Virus record (IMG/VR): IMGVR_UViG_3300009285_001160
Location: 1 to 23,349 of that record
Direction: 5' to 3' (one strand)
Length of the DNA: 23,349 bases
Origin: a virus
Positions 849 to 23,324 of this stretch are shown one piece after another (position 1 is the stretch's first letter; every line of letters begins with the position of its first letter). The position numbers and the translations under genes are program-made. A model generated the notes under the pieces. That model was not told where the DNA came from. It saw nothing but the letters and a program-made list of their open reading frames with translations, and did not search any database.

Positions 849-2640
849 ATGAGTATTGCAAATACTGTTACTTACGAAACAGTCTACGAAGAAATTTTGC
901 AAGACAGGCTTAACTAATCGGGTCTGTATAAATCTCTTTTAATTGACTTGGACTTCCTAGCAAAGGATAACAAGGGGCAAGCAGGGAAACCGTGCAGCCT
1001 GAACGACTAAACAAAGAGACCTCATAAGAGGAATTGATAGTCTGAACTCTGCAAATAATTGCACATTGAAAATCTAATTAAGAATATTCTCTTGTAGTCT
1101 CCTTCACGTTGTGGTAGGATAATTCAGACATGACAGAAGAAAGAAGAAGGAAAAAATTAGAATATAATAGGGCATATTATCTGAAGAACAGAGATATTTT
1201 TCTTGTACAGAAACGACAATATCGGGAAGAGAATCGTGAAAGACTTAGAAAAAAACAAGAATTATATCGTAACCAAAATAGAGATTTGGTAAATGTTAGG
1301 AAAATGGATTCCTATTATAGATATCGTGATGAGATTTGTGAGAGAAGACGAAAGAAGTACGAACTGAATCGTGAGAAAATTCTTGAGGGAAGACGACAAT
1401 ATACCAAACTAAACAGAGAGAAGATAAGAAAACATGAACGAGAGAGATACAATACAGATTTAGAGGTTAGAATAGCTCGAGTCTTGCGTTCTAGGATTAG
1501 AGAGGCGTTGAAGAATGGAAGCAAGTCGGCTAAAACAGAACTATTGCTGGGAATCTCTATCTTAGATTTTAAGATATTCGTTGAAAGACAGTTTGGTATT
1601 GGTATGACTTGGGAAAATTACGGTAAATGGGAAATAGACCATATTCGTTCTCTTTCTAGTTTTAACTTGACGAAGCCGAGAGAACAATTTAAAGCGTTTC
1701 ATTATACAAATATGCAACCTTTATGGATGAAAGAAAATCGGCAAAAGTGGGCAAAGATTCTTAATTAAATTATTTTAGAAAGCAGAGAGAGTTCTCCGAA
1801 GCGGGGACTCCCCTTGAAAAAGGAGTAACAACGGGCGATCACCCAACAACTTGGAAAGAAATGTGCGATGTCAAAATCAAGGACGTCAAAATCACTTCTA
1901 CCTCGTATATGTCCACCACGCCTACCGTAACAACGGTAACGCGCGGTACGGGACTTGTCGGTTCAACCTTTGCGGAAACTGCACAGACGCTTGACATCGC
2001 TACAGGACGAGACCTTGGCCTCTTTGTTGACTTGGCTGATTTAGCACAGAGTCCGTGGACAAAACCTGCGGAACTCTTCGACCGAATCGGCGCTCTTCTC
2101 AATGAGTTCGTTGAGACGGATGTTCTTGCACAGCATGGTTCTTGGACAGACTTCGATAATGCGTCAATCGGTGGAGCCGCTGGAAACATCACTGTTTCCG
2201 CTTCTAACGTTGACGATATCATCCGAGGTGTGAAGCGTGAGATTCGTGAAGCAAACGGAGGGTCAATGATGAAGTCAAAGGGTGTCGGGTTCGTGTGGCG
2301 TGCGGCTGACTTCGAGTATCTCGAAGCATTCGTACAAGCCAATGGTACGATGACTGCCGATAAGTTCCTTATTGAAGGAACATTGGAGGGTCTTCGGTAC
2401 ATGGCTTGCGACCACTATTGGTCTAACGACCATACGTCAGGACACTTGTTCGCGGGCGTGAAGAAAATCCAAGTGTTGGGTATTCTTCGCGGAACGTACG
2501 GACAGGCGCATACGATTCCGTTCCCTGCGGCTGATACAAACACCTTCCTTTCAGGGAAAGCGTTTTACAGTCGTGTGGACATTGGACATTTAACCCCGAC
2601 GGCACATGCTGGTCTAACATTCGACGTTTTGGTGGTGTAG
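849..2640 (+). CDS. Major capsid protein (module 1), interrupted by a group I intron
   Basis: Exon 1 (849-910) encodes MSIANTVTYETVYEEILQDR plus two bases of a codon. Exon 2 (1836-2640) completes a Leu codon and continues DHPTTWKEMCDVKI. The joined coding sequence is 867 bases, or 288 residues plus stop. Exon 2 alone can be read from an internal ATG at 1861 but would lack the first 29 residues. The protein has the mixed alpha/beta composition, STTPT segment and size expected of an HK97-fold capsid subunit, and it lies between a scaffold-like gene and a head-tail adaptor-like gene. The capsid call is therefore by context and general resemblance. Without splicing, translation of exon 1 stops at TAA 915-917, just inside the intron, so virion production should depend on intron removal. 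Confidence 0.75.
911..1835 (+). ncRNA. Group I self-splicing intron in the capsid gene
   Basis: The 5' exon end CAGGCU (905-910) pairs with GGUCUG (921-926) to form P1, with the required U-G wobble at the splice site. The adjacent AUCG (917-920) pairs with the first four bases of exon 2, CGAU (1836-1839), as P10. The last intron base is G (1835). P7 is visible as GACTA (1005-1009) with TAGTC (1038-1042), flanking a P8 hairpin, CCTC-ATAA-GAGG (1020-1031). The sequence between 970 and 1003 looks like a P4-P6 core. Further hairpins lie at about 1789-1830 near the 3' end. The predicted length is 925 bases, with a homing endonuclease gene in the 3' half. Splice sites are inferred from pairing and frame, not from RNA. 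Confidence 0.85.
1130..1768 (+). CDS. Intron-encoded HNH homing endonuclease
   Basis: A 212-residue, strongly basic protein. Residues 1-108 are tandem lysine/arginine/tyrosine-rich helical repeats (NREKIL, NRERLR, NRDIFL spacing), a DNA-contacting region seen in many phage free-standing and intron HNH proteins. The catalytic HNH region is near the C-terminus: WEIDHI (Asp170-His171), HYTN (Asn194) and ENRQK (Asn203), together with the PLW motif. The expected role is to cut intron-less capsid alleles and so spread the intron. It lies wholly inside the intron after the P7/P8 core. It is AT-rich compared with the capsid exons, which suits a separately acquired selfish gene. It appears intact. Confidence 0.9.
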   Translation: MTEERRRKKLEYNRAYYLKNRDIFLVQKRQYREENRERLRKKQELYRNQNRDLVNVRKMDSYYRYRDEICERRRKKYELNREKILEGRRQYTKLNREKIRKHERERYNTDLEVRIARVLRSRIREALKNGSKSAKTELLLGISILDFKIFVERQFGIGMTWENYGKWEIDHIRSLSSFNLTKPREQFKAFHYTNMQPLWMKENRQKWAKILN

Positions 2641-16291: not shown

Positions 16292-17146
16292 ATGAAAGAA
16301 ATTAAAGGAGGACTGAAAGAAAAGACAGAGGATAAACGCGACCTTAAAGTCGGGGCCATTTTCTCGCTTCCTGCTTTGAAAGATATTCCCGTCTCTTTTA
16401 AGTTGGAGAATATTTTCACGGCAAAGAATCAGGCAGATAGCGATTTCTGTTCTGCATATTCTCGCGTCGGTATGTCGCAACTTCAAGAGGGGGTGGAGCT
16501 CTCCCCAAAGATTGCCTTCGGTTTCTCGAAGTATCTTACGAAAGACCCGGATGAGTGGGGCCAGCAGATGAGAGACGCGATGAAAGCGAGTGTAAAACTA
16601 GGAGATGTCGAGAAGAATGATGAACCGATTGATTTATCTTTTGACAGCGCGCGCAGAGTTTACGAACGGCCTGATTTTGAGGAATTGAAAAAGAAAGCGG
16701 AGAAGCATAAGAAACAAACATATTTTGATGCAACCGGGCAGTATAATTCCTTCGACGATCTTCGCGCTACTATTTGGAAGTTCCGCGACAAGAAAGTTGC
16801 GGTGGCCATTGGAATAAAATTCAATTATCCGCTTTCGGATATTGTCTTACGGGATGTTGTTGAAGATGGTTTCGGTCATATGTTGTATGTCTACGGTTGG
16901 GAGGGTGATTATCTCCTTGTCCGCAACTCCTACGGACCCGAAGCCGGCCGGAATGGAGACCATCTCATACATCGTGATATTATCAATAAATGGGTACCAA
17001 TTTTCGGAGCGATGTGTCTTTTGGATATGCCACGGGAAGAAGCGGAATATAGACGGGATAACAAGATAAAGGAAAATGACTGGTGGATTGTGGGTGTCTT
17101 CAAGGCGCTTCTTTGGAGCATCTTATCCACATTCAGGAGGGCTTGA
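16292..17146 (+). CDS. Papain-like (family C1A) cysteine peptidase with C-terminal anchor
   Basis: A 284-residue protein. The active-site segment NQADSDFCSAYS places Gln47 six residues before Cys53, the spacing of the papain oxyanion Gln and catalytic Cys. GHMLYVYGW gives His196, and VRNSYG gives Asn212, sixteen residues later, again the papain spacing. All four catalytic positions are therefore present. There is no signal peptide or pro-domain of normal size. Residues 263-280 (DWWIVGVFKALLWSILST) form a hydrophobic helix that may anchor the enzyme in the membrane. It directly follows two small membrane proteins, so it may act in lysis or on surface-layer proteins. A role as a virion maturation protease is an alternative. 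Confidence 0.8.
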   Translation: MKEIKGGLKEKTEDKRDLKVGAIFSLPALKDIPVSFKLENIFTAKNQADSDFCSAYSRVGMSQLQEGVELSPKIAFGFSKYLTKDPDEWGQQMRDAMKASVKLGDVEKNDEPIDLSFDSARRVYERPDFEELKKKAEKHKKQTYFDATGQYNSFDDLRATIWKFRDKKVAVAIGIKFNYPLSDIVLRDVVEDGFGHMLYVYGWEGDYLLVRNSYGPEAGRNGDHLIHRDIINKWVPIFGAMCLLDMPREEAEYRRDNKIKENDWWIVGVFKALLWSILSTFRRA

Positions 17147-17950: not shown

Positions 17951-18024
17951 ATGTCCCAACTTTGGTTATAAATGGCGCTACCTCAAGGGCAAGATTTATA
18001 AACTACAACCCAAAGTTGGGACAT
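17951..18024 (+). repeat. Long imperfect inverted repeat, structured RNA or DNA element
   Basis: ATGTCCCAACTTTGG (17951-17965) is perfectly complementary to CCAAAGTTGGGACAT (18010-18024). Directly inside, TTATAAAT (17966-17973) pairs with ATTTATAA (17994-18001). The 5' arm is therefore 23 continuous bases, and the 3' arm is split by an eight-base bulge (ACTACAAC). The apical loop is 20 bases. It lies in the 175-base gap between 17907 and 18083, which holds no gene I can support. Confidence 0.7.
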
Positions 18025-18025
18025 G

Positions 18026-18050
18026 AAACCGGCGCACAACGCCGGTTTTA
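18026..18050 (+). terminator. Probable intrinsic terminator
   Basis: AAACCGGCG (18026-18034) and CGCCGGTTT (18040-18048) form a nine-base, GC-centred stem with a five-base loop. The stem ends in a short run of T (18046-18049) followed by A. It directly follows the long inverted repeat and separates the upstream genes from module 2. The T-tract is short, so termination may be partial. Confidence 0.6.
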
Positions 18051-18082
18051 TCAACCGTTTATGCTTACGAGACACAAAGTAT

Positions 18083-18715
18083 ATGGGTAACGAAGACCTT
18101 AACCTGGAAGTCACACCAGAGACAATAAATGAGACACCCGAATCGACGCCGGGAGAAGCGCCGAAAGAGGAGAAAGGACAAGCGCCTGATTCGGTCAAGT
18201 TCGAAGACATCGACAAGATTACTGACCTTGAGCAACTCAAAAAGATTGCAAAGGACCAGTACGCGATTCGAGTGCGACTCGGGAAGAAACTTGAAAAGTC
18301 TCCTGTTTCAAAGATTTCTGAACCTGCCGATCCGATTACGAAACGGGATTTTCATAAAATAAACGAGAAGGAAGCCATCGAACAGGTGACGACCATTCTT
18401 GATACCGATTCGGAAGAGGTGAAGCAGGTAAAGAAGGATTTGAACGAACATTGGAACGACATCAAAAAGCACTACAAAGCCACATCAGGCAAGGATCGTG
18501 CGAAAGATATTGCGGAGGACATCTTTGACGCTCACGCATCGTGGAAGCGACGCGGAGGCGGCAAAGCTCCCGATACTTCAAAGGAGACTGCGGCCGAGCT
18601 CGCCAGAAACGCTGGCAAGCCGGGCGGAGGGAAACCTACCGCTCCGGCGGGAAAGCCATCGTCCACAATTCCAAGACCTGTGCAGATGAAAGACTGGTTT
18701 GCTCCAAAGAAGTAG
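18083..18715 (+). CDS. Probable capsid scaffolding protein (module 2)
   Basis: A 210-residue protein. I chose ATG 18083 because the longer frame from 18023 would start inside the terminator hairpin. The N-terminus is acidic and disordered (residues 1-45), a helical core follows (ITDLEQLKKIAKDQYAIRVR, EEVKQVKKDLNEHWNDIKKH), and the C-terminus is a Gly/Pro/Lys-rich tail ending VQMKDWFAPKK. An acidic start, helical middle and basic end suit a capsid scaffold, and the next two genes are decoration-like and capsid-like. It shows no obvious sequence similarity to the scaffold-like protein of module 1. Confidence 0.6.
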   Translation: MGNEDLNLEVTPETINETPESTPGEAPKEEKGQAPDSVKFEDIDKITDLEQLKKIAKDQYAIRVRLGKKLEKSPVSKISEPADPITKRDFHKINEKEAIEQVTTILDTDSEEVKQVKKDLNEHWNDIKKHYKATSGKDRAKDIAEDIFDAHASWKRRGGGKAPDTSKETAAELARNAGKPGGGKPTAPAGKPSSTIPRPVQMKDWFAPKK

Positions 18716-18746
18716 TTCCAATGCATTATTAGTTAGCAGAACTATT

Positions 18747-19157
18747 ATGGCATTCAAGCCAGAACAATACGATTCCGGCAAGCTCGTTTACCTCAAAGCC
18801 GCAAACACGCAGACCTTTGCGAAGTTTGGCGCGGTAAAGAATGCTTCCGGGTATATTACTCCCGCGGCATCGGGAGACAATACTGACGTAAAATACGTCT
18901 CGATGGAAGCGATTACCACCAGCGGAACCGATGGTGACCTTGTCCTCTGCCTTCGTATCGGTGGAGTCACTATCGTTGCAGATACAAGCAACACTCCAAC
19001 CCAAGCGCAAATGATGACGGCTGTAGATCTTTCAGCGGTGAATACCATTGATACGAGTGCTGTCACAGACCAAGTATTCTTCGCAGAATCGATCGTTGGG
19101 GCGGCAGCAGACAAGAAGGTTCGAGGATGGTTCCTTGAAGGTGTTGTGAACTCCTAA
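18747..19157 (+). CDS. Capsid decoration-like protein (module 2)
   Basis: A 136-residue protein from ATG 18747. It is beta-rich and begins MAFKPEQYDSGKLVYLKAAN, followed by FAKFGAVKNASGYITPA and a repeated strand pattern up to GWFLEGVVNS. Its size, small beta content and position between scaffold and capsid match head decoration or stabilising proteins of HK97-type phages. No signal peptide is present. The family is not confirmed by a motif. There is no Shine-Dalgarno sequence; the start lies in ATTATGG. Confidence 0.6.
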   Translation: MAFKPEQYDSGKLVYLKAANTQTFAKFGAVKNASGYITPAASGDNTDVKYVSMEAITTSGTDGDLVLCLRIGGVTIVADTSNTPTQAQMMTAVDLSAVNTIDTSAVTDQVFFAESIVGAAADKKVRGWFLEGVVNS

Positions 19158-19188
19158 TTATTAGAATCCGACCTAATTACCAACTTAT

Positions 19189-20166
19189 ATGGCAATTACA
19201 ACAGAAGACTTTCCCGCACTCACCGACTATCTCAATGAGATATACAATGAGGCGGCAAGTCAAAAGGTGGCGGATATGGGAGGTCTCAAGCTCTTTGATG
19301 CTTCCGACTATCCATTCCAAACCTTCGATTGGTTGAATCTGCATGGTTCAGCCGGTATCACGGAAGTGACTCCCGGTGCCGACTTGCCGACCATCAACAA
19401 CGTTGAAGGTGACAACTTGACGGTTACACAGAAATACTACGGTGGGAAAGTTTCCGTCACAAAGGCGATGCGACTTTTTGACCGCTGGGACAAGATTGAA
19501 TCGGTGGCAAAAAGCATCACTGATGACGGCTTTGATAACCTTGACCAGAGTTACGCGGATGTACTCTTGTACGCGGCTTCGACCTCATACACGGATGTGT
19601 GGGGGTCTACCAAGACCTCTACCGGTCCCGATGGTGTTGCCCTCGCTTCGGCTTCCCACTCGAACAACATCAACTTGACGGTGTTCTCAAACCTTATCCG
19701 AAACGCAGCGGCGACCACCAACGTAGCGCTTGCGCGCGACCCGATTGTGACGACCCGAGCAGCAGCCCTTAAATGGACTGACCCGAACGGTCTCACTCGT
19801 CCGATTAAGTTGAATACCGTCCTTGTTGGACCTTCAAATGAGGACTTGGCTGAGCGTCTTATTCTCTCCTCGAATCTTCCCGGTTCACAGAATAACGATA
19901 TCAACCCGCTCAAAGGGCGATTCGCCATTCAGATGTGGGAGAGGCTCGACCTCCGCTCTGATGCGACATCAACCACGGCATACTGGTATATGTACGACTC
20001 GAGCAAAATCAAAGAGACGTTCAAGGCGAAGTTCGCTGAACGGCCGAGTCTCGATGCTCCTGAGCAGGTATACGCGAATAAGAACTGGGACTGGACTCTG
20101 GACTTCTTCTACGCGTGGGGATTCTTTGCTCCTCAGTATTTATATTGTTCGACCGGCGTGAACTGA
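19189..20166 (+). CDS. Major capsid protein (module 2)
   Basis: A 325-residue protein with the layout of an HK97-fold capsid subunit: an N-terminal helix (ALTDYLNEIYNEAASQKV), a beta region (LTVTQKYYGGKVSVTKAM) where the E-loop would be, a long central helix (DDGFDNLDQSYADVLLYAAS), and a C-terminal beta domain with KLNTVLVGPSNEDLAERL and FAIQMWERLDLRSD. It ends with WDWTLDFFYAWGFFAP. The combination of a YYGGKVSVT strand and a VLVGPSN strand recalls gpT-like capsid proteins. It differs in length and sequence from the capsid at 849-2640, and it has no intron. It lies 31 bases after the decoration-like gene. Confidence 0.8.
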   Translation: MAITTEDFPALTDYLNEIYNEAASQKVADMGGLKLFDASDYPFQTFDWLNLHGSAGITEVTPGADLPTINNVEGDNLTVTQKYYGGKVSVTKAMRLFDRWDKIESVAKSITDDGFDNLDQSYADVLLYAASTSYTDVWGSTKTSTGPDGVALASASHSNNINLTVFSNLIRNAAATTNVALARDPIVTTRAAALKWTDPNGLTRPIKLNTVLVGPSNEDLAERLILSSNLPGSQNNDINPLKGRFAIQMWERLDLRSDATSTTAYWYMYDSSKIKETFKAKFAERPSLDAPEQVYANKNWDWTLDFFYAWGFFAPQYLYCSTGVN

Positions 20167-20187
20167 TTTATCAGCTAATTTGAACCT

Positions 20188-20556
20188 ATGTCAAACGGAC
20201 CAAATTGGGCACGACTGTTGGTACAAAATCGCTGTAAGGCGATAGGGGTTTCGTGGACAGAAGAAGAGCTCCACGCTATCCACCAGCTCAAAGTGCCAGC
20301 TGATTATGTTAGGCGCGGGTGTCTGACGTTCGAGGAGTACGAAGCGAAGGTAGCAGCTGATCAAGCCGCTACGGAAGAGAAGGGAGAAGCACCTCTCGCA
20401 TGTCTAAAGAAGACAGAACTAATCGTCATTGCAGAGAAGCTCGGGATTGAAGTTACCGATGCGGCAAATAAAGCTGAACTTATTGACTTAATCGAAGTTG
20501 CGCGGGAGAAGTCGGCCAGCGCAGGAGATAACGACAACCAACATGGAACAGAATAA
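20188..20556 (+). CDS. Head protein with HeH/Rho-N-like domain
   Basis: A 122-residue protein. Residues 1-50 are a small helical region (NWARLLVQNRCKAIGVSW, EEELHAIHQLKVP). Residues 73-107 (LKKTELIVIAEKLGIEVT, then ANKAELIDLIEVAREK) fit a HeH/LEM or Rho N-terminal helix-extended-helix fold, which many phages encode just after the capsid gene. The tail is polar. It may bind nucleic acid or act in head completion. The following gene starts inside its last codons, so they are probably co-translated. Confidence 0.6.
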   Translation: MSNGPNWARLLVQNRCKAIGVSWTEEELHAIHQLKVPADYVRRGCLTFEEYEAKVAADQAATEEKGEAPLACLKKTELIVIAEKLGIEVTDAANKAELIDLIEVAREKSASAGDNDNQHGTE

Positions 20557-21178
20557 AACAAATATCGTCATCGGTATTATCGCAGTTGCGGTTCTGCTCC
20601 TGTCGCTTGTTGCGGTATTCAAGGAACAAAAAGTTGTTGTCAATCTCCCTGCAAGTTCGCTTGGCGCGACTTCTCGCGTTGCGGGAACGGTATCGGACTA
20701 CACTTCTCTCTTCAACAACTTCACGGGGCAGATAGAGGTGGACGGAGCTTCACTTCTTACTGGTACGACCACGGTAACGCAGTCGGTAGACGGAATCGTG
20801 GTAGGAGGCACCGTTACTTCGGTTTCGACAACTTCGGTGAAGTATGTGTACACCAATACGACAGGCCCGAAGGCTTGCTCGTCGGGTTCGCCGAGTTATG
20901 TGAGACAACTCAAGAGTGGAACATTTGCACCTTCAGTTAATCTTGCTGTGGGGACTTCTACAGCTTCGGGTGCGGTGACCTTGAGCTTGCTTGCCACGAC
21001 AACTACGGCGACATCAAGCTCACAGTTTCTTACTCTGACCGAAAGAAGGTTCCTCTTGGATAATAATGACCAACTTGTTGTTCAAATTGCTGACAGTCAG
21101 GCCAACACATCTTCTTCAACATATTACAGCAATCTGAATTACGAACTGGGAATTTACTGTCAAGACGCATCAATCTAA
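20543..21178 (+). CDS. Membrane-anchored beta-rich surface protein
   Basis: A 211-residue protein. I chose ATG 20543 because a membrane span (residues 8-27, IVIGIIAVAVLLLSLVAVF) follows a short basic end; an upstream in-frame ATG at 20498 would add 15 polar residues. The rest is a Thr/Ser-rich beta segment (SLLTGTTTVTQSVDGIVVGG, TTTTATSSSQFLTLTERR). The start lies within the last codons of the previous gene. A membrane-anchored protein with an external beta domain is unexpected within a head operon. It could be displayed on the infected cell or belong to the virion. Confidence 0.55.
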   Translation: MEQNKTNIVIGIIAVAVLLLSLVAVFKEQKVVVNLPASSLGATSRVAGTVSDYTSLFNNFTGQIEVDGASLLTGTTTVTQSVDGIVVGGTVTSVSTTSVKYVYTNTTGPKACSSGSPSYVRQLKSGTFAPSVNLAVGTSTASGAVTLSLLATTTTATSSSQFLTLTERRFLLDNNDQLVVQIADSQANTSSSTYYSNLNYELGIYCQDASI

Positions 21179-21188
21179 CGCCTCTACT

Positions 21189-21215
21189 CGTCCGCTTACT
21201 TGTGATAAGCGGACG
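21189..21215 (+). terminator. Perfect ten-base hairpin between genes
   Basis: CGTCCGCTTA (21189-21198) and TAAGCGGACG (21206-21215) pair perfectly around a seven-base loop, ten bases after the stop at 21178. No U-tract follows (CAATAGGG), so it may be a partial terminator, a processing site or a stabilising stem rather than a strong terminator. Confidence 0.45.
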
Positions 21216-21245
21216 CAATAGGGACATTAAAACTAATCAATATCT

Positions 21246-21761
21246 ATGACTAAAAAGATTCTCTACTCTCTCATTATCCTCGTTCTCGGATTCTCTGTCG
21301 GGTATCACTATCGTGCTCCAATTGCGGAGGCGTATGCGGCATACACGACTTATATGCGTTCGGCTTCTGCTACGACCACCCCGACGTATCTTGTTTGGGG
21401 TTCAGCGACTTCAACGCGAGTCGTTCCGACCAACAATGTTGGCAACTTGGAAGTATCTATCTTGGCCACCGCTTCAAGTTCAAACCCGACCAACTTTGAC
21501 CTCACTTTCCTTACTTCAGAGGATAACATTGACTACTATCCGATGTTGATGCCGATAGCAAACGTAACGGCTTCAACTTCTGTGAGTATAAATACTTCGG
21601 GGACGGTCTATAGTTTCAATCTCGCCACTGCCGCAACCACTTCGCTTCCCGTCATCTCTATCACGCCCACAGGCGCGTTTACCAAAGTACAGGTAACGGT
21701 TGGAACGACAACCAACGCGACTTCTAAAGGTGCTGTTCATGTAAAGATTGGACAAAGATAA
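21246..21761 (+). CDS. Exported beta-sandwich protein
   Basis: A 171-residue protein with a good signal peptide: a basic start (MTKK), a hydrophobic core (ILYSLIILVLGFSVG) and a candidate cleavage site at AEA-YA near residue 28. The mature part of about 140 residues is a Thr/Ser-rich beta domain (SILATASSSNPTNFDLTFLT, TGAFTKVQVTVGTTT). The composition is close to the protein at 20543-21178, and both lie between capsid and adaptor genes. A surface or fibre role is likely. I recognise no family. Confidence 0.55.
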   Translation: MTKKILYSLIILVLGFSVGYHYRAPIAEAYAAYTTYMRSASATTTPTYLVWGSATSTRVVPTNNVGNLEVSILATASSSNPTNFDLTFLTSEDNIDYYPMLMPIANVTASTSVSINTSGTVYSFNLATAATTSLPVISITPTGAFTKVQVTVGTTTNATSKGAVHVKIGQR

Positions 21762-21770
21762 TTCCATGTC

Positions 21771-23324
21771 ATGCAACCACGCATTTATAGCCGAAATCGC
21801 CTCTTGGAGATTGACACGAGCGCGCTTGTAGCGAACGCGCTGGAGATAACTGAACTCACCGCAGACGCGGCTATCGGGACGACCCTTACCGTCAAAAACA
21901 TAAACGGCTTCGCTATAAACCAAAATCTCCTGCTCGGAGAACTTGGAGATGAAGACGCGGAATTTGCAAAAACGCATACCGCCACCGCACCTAGCGGTAC
22001 GACCATTACGCTCCTCGCAGCTTCCATTCGCGCTCACGGCGCGGGTACGAAGGTGTATCTTGTAAAATACAATGCGGTAGAACTCACTACCGCAACTACC
22101 GCAACAGGCACAAAGTCCGTCCTCACTACTTCCACCGGCAACGGACTCCTTTCTCTGCAAGCGGATGAGAAACGGCAAATCTATAGCGAACTGGAAAAAT
22201 CCAGCGGCTTCTACTTTGGGCGGTTTGTGAATGATATTGGCGCGACCTTTACCATTTCGGGCGATACGCTCACTTCTACCGCGCACGGATTGGTAAATGG
22301 AGAGACGGTCAAACTCATCGCGGCGACCACCATGCCTGCGGGACTCACGACCTACACGCTGTACTACGTCGTGGAAAAGGCGGCAAACACATTCAAGGTC
22401 TCGCTCACGGAAGGCGGCACGGCTATCACCTCAACCGATGGCGGAAGCGGAACGCTTACATGGTATCGTTCCTCTGCGTTTTCGGATGCGATTGCGTACG
22501 GCAAGATGGACAGGAATACGGTTGCATACATTATTGATTACGCCCTGAAACGAAACGGGATGAGTAGTCTAAATACGACCATCACGCAGGAATTTTGTTT
22601 TGATGAGATTGATGCCTGCATCCAGTTAATTCAGAACAAGCAACTTCGCTTTGACGATTTTCAGTCTCTCGGTACTGTGCTCGGACAGACTTCCGCAGGG
22701 TCTTTCATAACAGCATTACCAAGCGATATCTATGACAATGACTCCAATAAGTCGCTTACAGCCGTCAGAATAGGACATGGTGATAATCTAACCTACCAAG
22801 ACAATAGGGAGTTCGACGACCTGAATGAGAACATGGTGTATACGCAGGTCACAACGGCCGCTTCCGCCGCGCAGACAACTCTTGCCATCGATAACAGTTA
22901 CGATTTTGATGATTCTGGTACGGTAGTGGTCTATGTGAGCGGTACGAAGTATTCCATAACCTATACGGGCGTGACGCGGTCCGCTACCGCGGGCGTGCTT
23001 ACGGGGGTGCCAGCTTCCGGCTCGGGTTCTATAACCGTCACCATCCCAGTTGATACCTATGTGTATCAAGATGGCATATTTGGAGAGCCAAAGTATTACA
23101 CAGTACGCGGGGGGAACCTTGAGATTACTCCCGTGCCGGACGGTAGTTGGGACAATCAAAACATTCAGGGCGATTATTGGAAGGTACTTACGCGCGTAGA
23201 TAGCTTCGGAGATACGGTTGAACTTACCCGCTACGAACTCATAAAGAACTGGCTGACATGGAAAATTCGGTGCCAGAAAGAAAGGAACGGGAAGCTGGAT
23301 TTTTCAGGACTTCGAAATTTATGA
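21771..23324 (+). CDS. Adaptor-like head completion protein with inserted beta domains
   Basis: A 517-residue protein. After a short helical start (PRIYSRNRLLEIDTSALVA), residues about 27-112 form an Ig-like beta domain. Residues about 155-240 contain STAHGLVNGETVKLIAAT and YTLYYVVEKAANTFKVSL, which resembles the FCCH-type beta domain found in phage structural proteins. From residue 248 helices appear (RNTVAYIIDYALKRNG, EIDACIQLIQNKQLRFDDF). Another beta insertion spans about 357-425, before a C-terminal region ending RYELIKNWLTWKIRCQKER. Alternating helices and beta insertions suggest a head-tail adaptor with decorations. It is about twice the size of a typical adaptor. The next gene overlaps its stop (ATGA). 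Confidence 0.5.
   Translation: MQPRIYSRNRLLEIDTSALVANALEITELTADAAIGTTLTVKNINGFAINQNLLLGELGDEDAEFAKTHTATAPSGTTITLLAASIRAHGAGTKVYLVKYNAVELTTATTATGTKSVLTTSTGNGLLSLQADEKRQIYSELEKSSGFYFGRFVNDIGATFTISGDTLTSTAHGLVNGETVKLIAATTMPAGLTTYTLYYVVEKAANTFKVSLTEGGTAITSTDGGSGTLTWYRSSAFSDAIAYGKMDRNTVAYIIDYALKRNGMSSLNTTITQEFCFDEIDACIQLIQNKQLRFDDFQSLGTVLGQTSAGSFITALPSDIYDNDSNKSLTAVRIGHGDNLTYQDNREFDDLNENMVYTQVTTAASAAQTTLAIDNSYDFDDSGTVVVYVSGTKYSITYTGVTRSATAGVLTGVPASGSGSITVTIPVDTYVYQDGIFGEPKYYTVRGGNLEITPVPDGSWDNQNIQGDYWKVLTRVDSFGDTVELTRYELIKNWLTWKIRCQKERNGKLDFSGLRNL

Follow-up and report, generated by a model that had tools for sequence, protein, structure and literature searches.

The window analysed here is a whole virus record of 23,349 bases. 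On its plus strand, a major capsid gene of an uncultured phage is divided into exon 1 (849–910; codons 1–20 and the first two bases of Leu21) and exon 2 (1836–2640) by an insert of 925 nt (911–1835, last base G1835), and the insert contains a gene for an HNH (endonuclease VII-like) protein of 212 aa (1130–1768, plus strand). Unspliced, the frame opened by the ATG at 849 reads MSIANTVTYETVYEEILQDRLN and ends at a TAA stop codon (915–917) after 22 codons. Joining 849–910 to 1836–2640 gives an open frame of 288 aa in which CT and C combine into Leu21, and 1835 is the sole 3′ end finishing in G beside AGTAACA that keeps this frame open. Almost certainly the insert is a group I intron that carries an HNH gene and interrupts the major capsid gene of a phage: its removal would restore a conserved capsid protein, and a covariance model trained without it recognizes its core.

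Relatives of the capsid were searched with the downstream part alone (1861–2640) as the query, and the first round returned 29 viral contigs. The exon 1 peptide MSIANTVTYETVYEEILQDR(L) is kept in all 29 intact relatives, and each of them is uninterrupted at the exact junction codon, reading through QDRL|DHPTTWKE as LQDRLDHPTTWKE or near variants. The empty site in the relatives thus coincides with both splice sites and with the codon-21 position assigned in a preliminary description made from the sequence. That description had regarded capsid homologs starting at the Met encoded at 1861, with nothing similar to the exon 1 peptide, as evidence against an intron; the relatives carry the peptide. 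Most are 67–82% identical across the full spliced protein, and the intact homologs show the same range of identity over exon 2. Splicing makes Met 1861 the 30th residue, so a capsid annotated from this codon would lose 29 residues. The intron call therefore corrects the annotation of a gene that would otherwise appear as two fragments or start 29 residues late.

The spliced capsid protein belongs to no Pfam family and has only weak links to major head proteins in PHROGs, and no relatives of the intron-split capsid were found in the annotated phage collection. An AlphaFold model of an intact homolog (L001, pLDDT 79.5) matched HK97-fold phage capsids in Foldseek with an E value of 1e-10, and TM scores against HK97 Head II were 0.66/0.72. 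The modelled structure places the protein in the HK97 fold and bears out the earlier designation of the gene as a capsid gene. The capsid of L025/L112 appeared to be split as well; a plain change of frame and no intron was seen there.

The anatomy of the intron can be followed from one splice site to the other on the plus strand. By sequence reading, P1 is formed by 904–910 with 921–927, so that the pairing originally described (905–910 with 921–926) is extendable by A904–U927, and it places a U910·G921 wobble at the 5′ splice site. The same U|..G geometry is present in related introns at four other sites. The P10 guide AUCG (917–920), likewise read from the letters only, would pair with the exon 2 bases CGAU (1836–1839). 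The catalytic core (933–1043), which is supported by covariation, comprises P3 (933–939/1013–1019), P4 (947–950/971–974), P5 (955–958/964–967), P6 (976–978/997–999), P6a (981–985/990–995), P7 (1003 and 1005–1009/1038–1043), and P8 (1020–1023/1028–1031). P7 has a single bulged position, C1004, a feature of the guanosine-binding site of group I introns. One kind of IA group I introns has P7.1/P7.2 helices; the intron in the window would not be of this kind because only 1010–1012 lie between P7 and P3, which leaves no space for them.

Folding of the ORF-less intron with RNAfold pairs the 5′ strand of P9 (CUCUGC, 1047–1052) with 1782–1787, and the HNH gene sits in the P9 loop, at a place where relatives have a closed short P9 hairpin. 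The 3′ domain (1782–1835, RNAfold) consists of the 3′ strand of P9, P9.1 (1789–1797/1803–1810), P9.2 (1812–1815/1820–1823), AGUAACA, and the terminal G1835. Both AGUAACA and P9.1-like hairpins are found again in related introns, which likewise end in G. The positions given in the preliminary description for P1, P10, P7, P8, G1835, and the exon join thus hold. Six of the eight related introns read in the capsid family of the window begin with UAA or UAAC directly after the 5′ splice site, and translation of the unspliced RNA therefore stops within a few codons. In L038, L087, and L147, the endonuclease ORFs lie upstream of P7 (P5–P6 region) and not in P9, and the cores are otherwise similar.

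A search of the intron against Rfam, which the preliminary description had proposed with Intron_gpI as a check, returned no match at E ≤ 10 with either gathering or loose thresholds; a match to this model (RF00028) helps to recognize group I introns but does not define them. The same library also misses two known capsid introns, the annotated one of Tuc2009 and the RT-PCR-proven one of LittleE; the negative result is therefore uninformative, and the core was tested directly. One sister intron, which shares the P7 strands, was matched by Rfam Intron_gpI below threshold (26.9 bits). With blastn, 106 nt of the core were 75% identical to a stretch within the split P22-like coat gene of phage MW202674. 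Two pattern scans provided further viral loci with the same core. Covariation was assessed on 25 aligned cores over the 33 pairs of P3, P4, P5, P6, P7, and P8. The proposed helices are paired in 95.1% of cells, compared with 38–45% when the 3′ strands are slid, and both-sided changes occur at 22 of the 33 pairs, in all six helices including the P3/P7 pseudoknot. The outer pair of P7 varies among A-U, G-C, and C-G, and the inner pair among A-U, G-C, and U-A. None of the shuffles reached any of the five measures.

A covariance model was built from which the window was left out, as were the L052 and L056 introns, which belong to the same capsid family. It matched the window at 929–1046 with 124.7 bits (E 2e-25) as its sole match there, and few cores of the family score as well. 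Together with the covariation in every core helix, this score sustains the group I assignment made earlier. Weak matches of the same model (22–29 bits) fell on the Tuc2009 and LittleE introns, where these are annotated, and on a single position in Twort. The intron lineage of the window is missed by Rfam and easily found by a small covariance model.

The ORF at 1130–1768 matches phrog_1035 (endonuclease VII) with an E value of 3.5e-7, and its IDH ... HYTN.QP.W...N motif is invariant in six relatives, with D170, H171, N194, and N203 all kept. Two of the six (L052 and L056) sit in introns of the capsid family of the window. The protein stays under every Pfam cut-off, and its AlphaFold model is poor over the nuclease part and too weak to use. 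The motif residues and the PHROG match support the HNH gene reported in the preliminary description, and its product is a putative homing endonuclease.

We propose a pathway in which the RNA would form P1 where exon 1 ends, a P7-bound guanosine would attack after U910, and exon 1 would then attack after G1835, guided by P10. Self-splicing of this kind, read from the anatomy of the intron, would join CT and C into Leu21 and restore the HK97-fold capsid protein, and the formation of virions would depend on it. When another phage with an intron-less capsid allele co-infects, the HNH protein encoded in the P9 loop presumably cuts that allele, and repair of the cut allele would copy the intron in.

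Alternatively, the ribozyme might be degenerate, so that the insert splices no more and the two parts of the capsid gene have either lost their function or serve apart from each other, perhaps because a second capsid gene (19189–20166) took over. The presence of this second, unrelated capsid gene near the right end of the contig fits such a history, but each exon has an open frame and is conserved, the insert has kept P1, P7, P10, and the terminal G unbroken, and the core is among the best-scoring of its family; we regard loss of splicing as very improbable. The insert could also be of another type, such as a group II intron, an intein, or a plain HNH gene insertion, and the missing group I match in Rfam would agree with this. 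However, Rfam gave no group II match either, and the group I core with covariation and the U|...G| boundaries speak against it, so that the chance of another insertion type is close to negligible. An intein is excluded because a stop codon lies three codons into the insert, and this stop right past the 5′ splice site also rules out a simple gene insertion.

Scanning the capsid relatives with the covariance model and reading the junctions revealed related introns elsewhere in the capsid family, at four sites besides that of the window and thus at five in all. They are located after Ala4 (L088 and L087, and also L119, a shorter member, after the equivalent Ala2), within codon Tyr9 (L105 and, by sequence, L098), within codon Leu21 (the window), after Ala185 (L052 and also L113, where the contig ends), and after Ala189 (L056). 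The remark in the preliminary description that phage introns often occupy conserved positions did not apply here, as the introns in relatives sit at other positions. In seven introns, including that of the window, a G end beside AGTAACA leaves exactly one frame-open join, and this join restores the capsid. The intron ORFs are endonuclease VII-like in the window, L052, and L056, and of another HNH type in L087, L088, and L105. That of L147, which has a more distant capsid, is labelled HNH by PHROGs and reads as LAGLIDADG-like, and the 206-nt intron of L119 has no ORF. Across 24 whole contigs of the phage family of the window (approximately 720 kb), the covariance model detected just four introns, each of them in the capsid gene. 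In a tree built from 52 cores, 30 of the 49 inner branches are weak, and a single origin of the introns of this capsid family was not separated from several (AU p 0.29). This recurrent invasion of one capsid gene family is the more interesting part of the finding.

Searches that started from nothing but the intron core yielded 36 loci, of which 33 lie in major capsid genes. At 29 loci the exons next to the intron belong to TIGR04387, the N4-gp56 major capsid family (L054 by position only), two loci belong to the capsid family of the window, one (L038) matches a major head PHROG, and one is an annotated P22 coat gene. Of the remainder, L039 is in a portal gene, and the host genes of L031 and L044 were not assigned to capsid. 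Approximately six to seven of the 36 loci are near-duplicates, so that roughly 27 of 30 independent loci are capsid genes, and this bias applies to close kin of the window intron only because the seeds came from that intron. The N4-gp56 capsid genes of L037, L047, L049, L064, L065, L066, L067, and L069 are each interrupted by two or three related introns of the group I type, and the positions recur.

We tentatively suggest, as a possibility that we would not yet favor, that one group I ribozyme lineage is specialized for phage major capsid genes and has repeatedly entered different capsid families while swapping endonuclease types, possibly because these genes have high transcription and occur in common among phages that compete. 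The span of such a lineage would include at least five sites in the capsid family of the window, several introns per gene in N4-gp56, and endonuclease VII-like, other HNH, and LAGLIDADG-like ORFs. If the bias holds more widely, the question of why capsid genes attract mobile introns becomes testable, as does the role of intron endonucleases in phage–phage competition, in this case among phages whose hosts may be candidate-phylum bacteria.

Introns in capsid genes, and even more than one in a gene, have been published before (PMC3706429, PMC7886860), and the intron in the window adds to a known kind. Splicing of the capsid intron of LittleE (mycobacteriophage cluster J) was proven by RT-PCR and N-terminal sequencing (PMC3706429). 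Like the window, LittleE has a group I-type intron with an endonuclease gene in the major capsid gene, with a 5′ exon ending in U and an intron ending in G, whereas its capsid belongs to another family, its endonuclease gene is on the opposite strand, and its intron scores 23.9 bits with the covariance model. The mp4 capsid intron of Lactococcus phage Tuc2009 (AF109874) is also of group I, contains an ORF, and interrupts the major head gene, but the ribozyme is distant (22.1 bits) and the capsid gene is different. CrAss-like Zeta/Delta phages have several group I introns per major capsid gene (PMC7886860); these are different phages, and the likeness concerns the location in capsid genes and the number of introns per gene. 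The core in Caudoviricetes ctn9Y15 (MW202674), the blastn match described above, also lies in a coat gene, but its insert is too short for an endonuclease gene, the coat is of another family (P22-like), and it is not annotated as an intron. In the record (L030, 2488–2605), the two exons are instead entered as P22 coat proteins in their own right, and the ribozyme core is covered by a hypothetical protein.

A literature search of limited reach turned up nothing on group I introns in phages that infect candidate-phylum bacteria. The CPR host proposed in the preliminary description is weakly suggested by one relative contig in a Parcubacteria MAG; another one is binned in an unclassified MAG. The right end of the window (18023–23324) contains a second, unrelated capsid module with a scaffold-like ORF, a PHROG 1731 virion protein, and a Phage_capsid_4 major capsid protein (19189–20166). 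The module is absent from 20 contigs of the phage family of the left capsid, and a pattern search of viral contigs found no relatives of the second capsid. The contig is either a chimeric assembly or has two capsid modules. A protease-like ORF (16292–17146) is present in three of those 20 contigs, and the GC content climbs from approximately 0.42 to approximately 0.49 near 10.5 kb of the contig.
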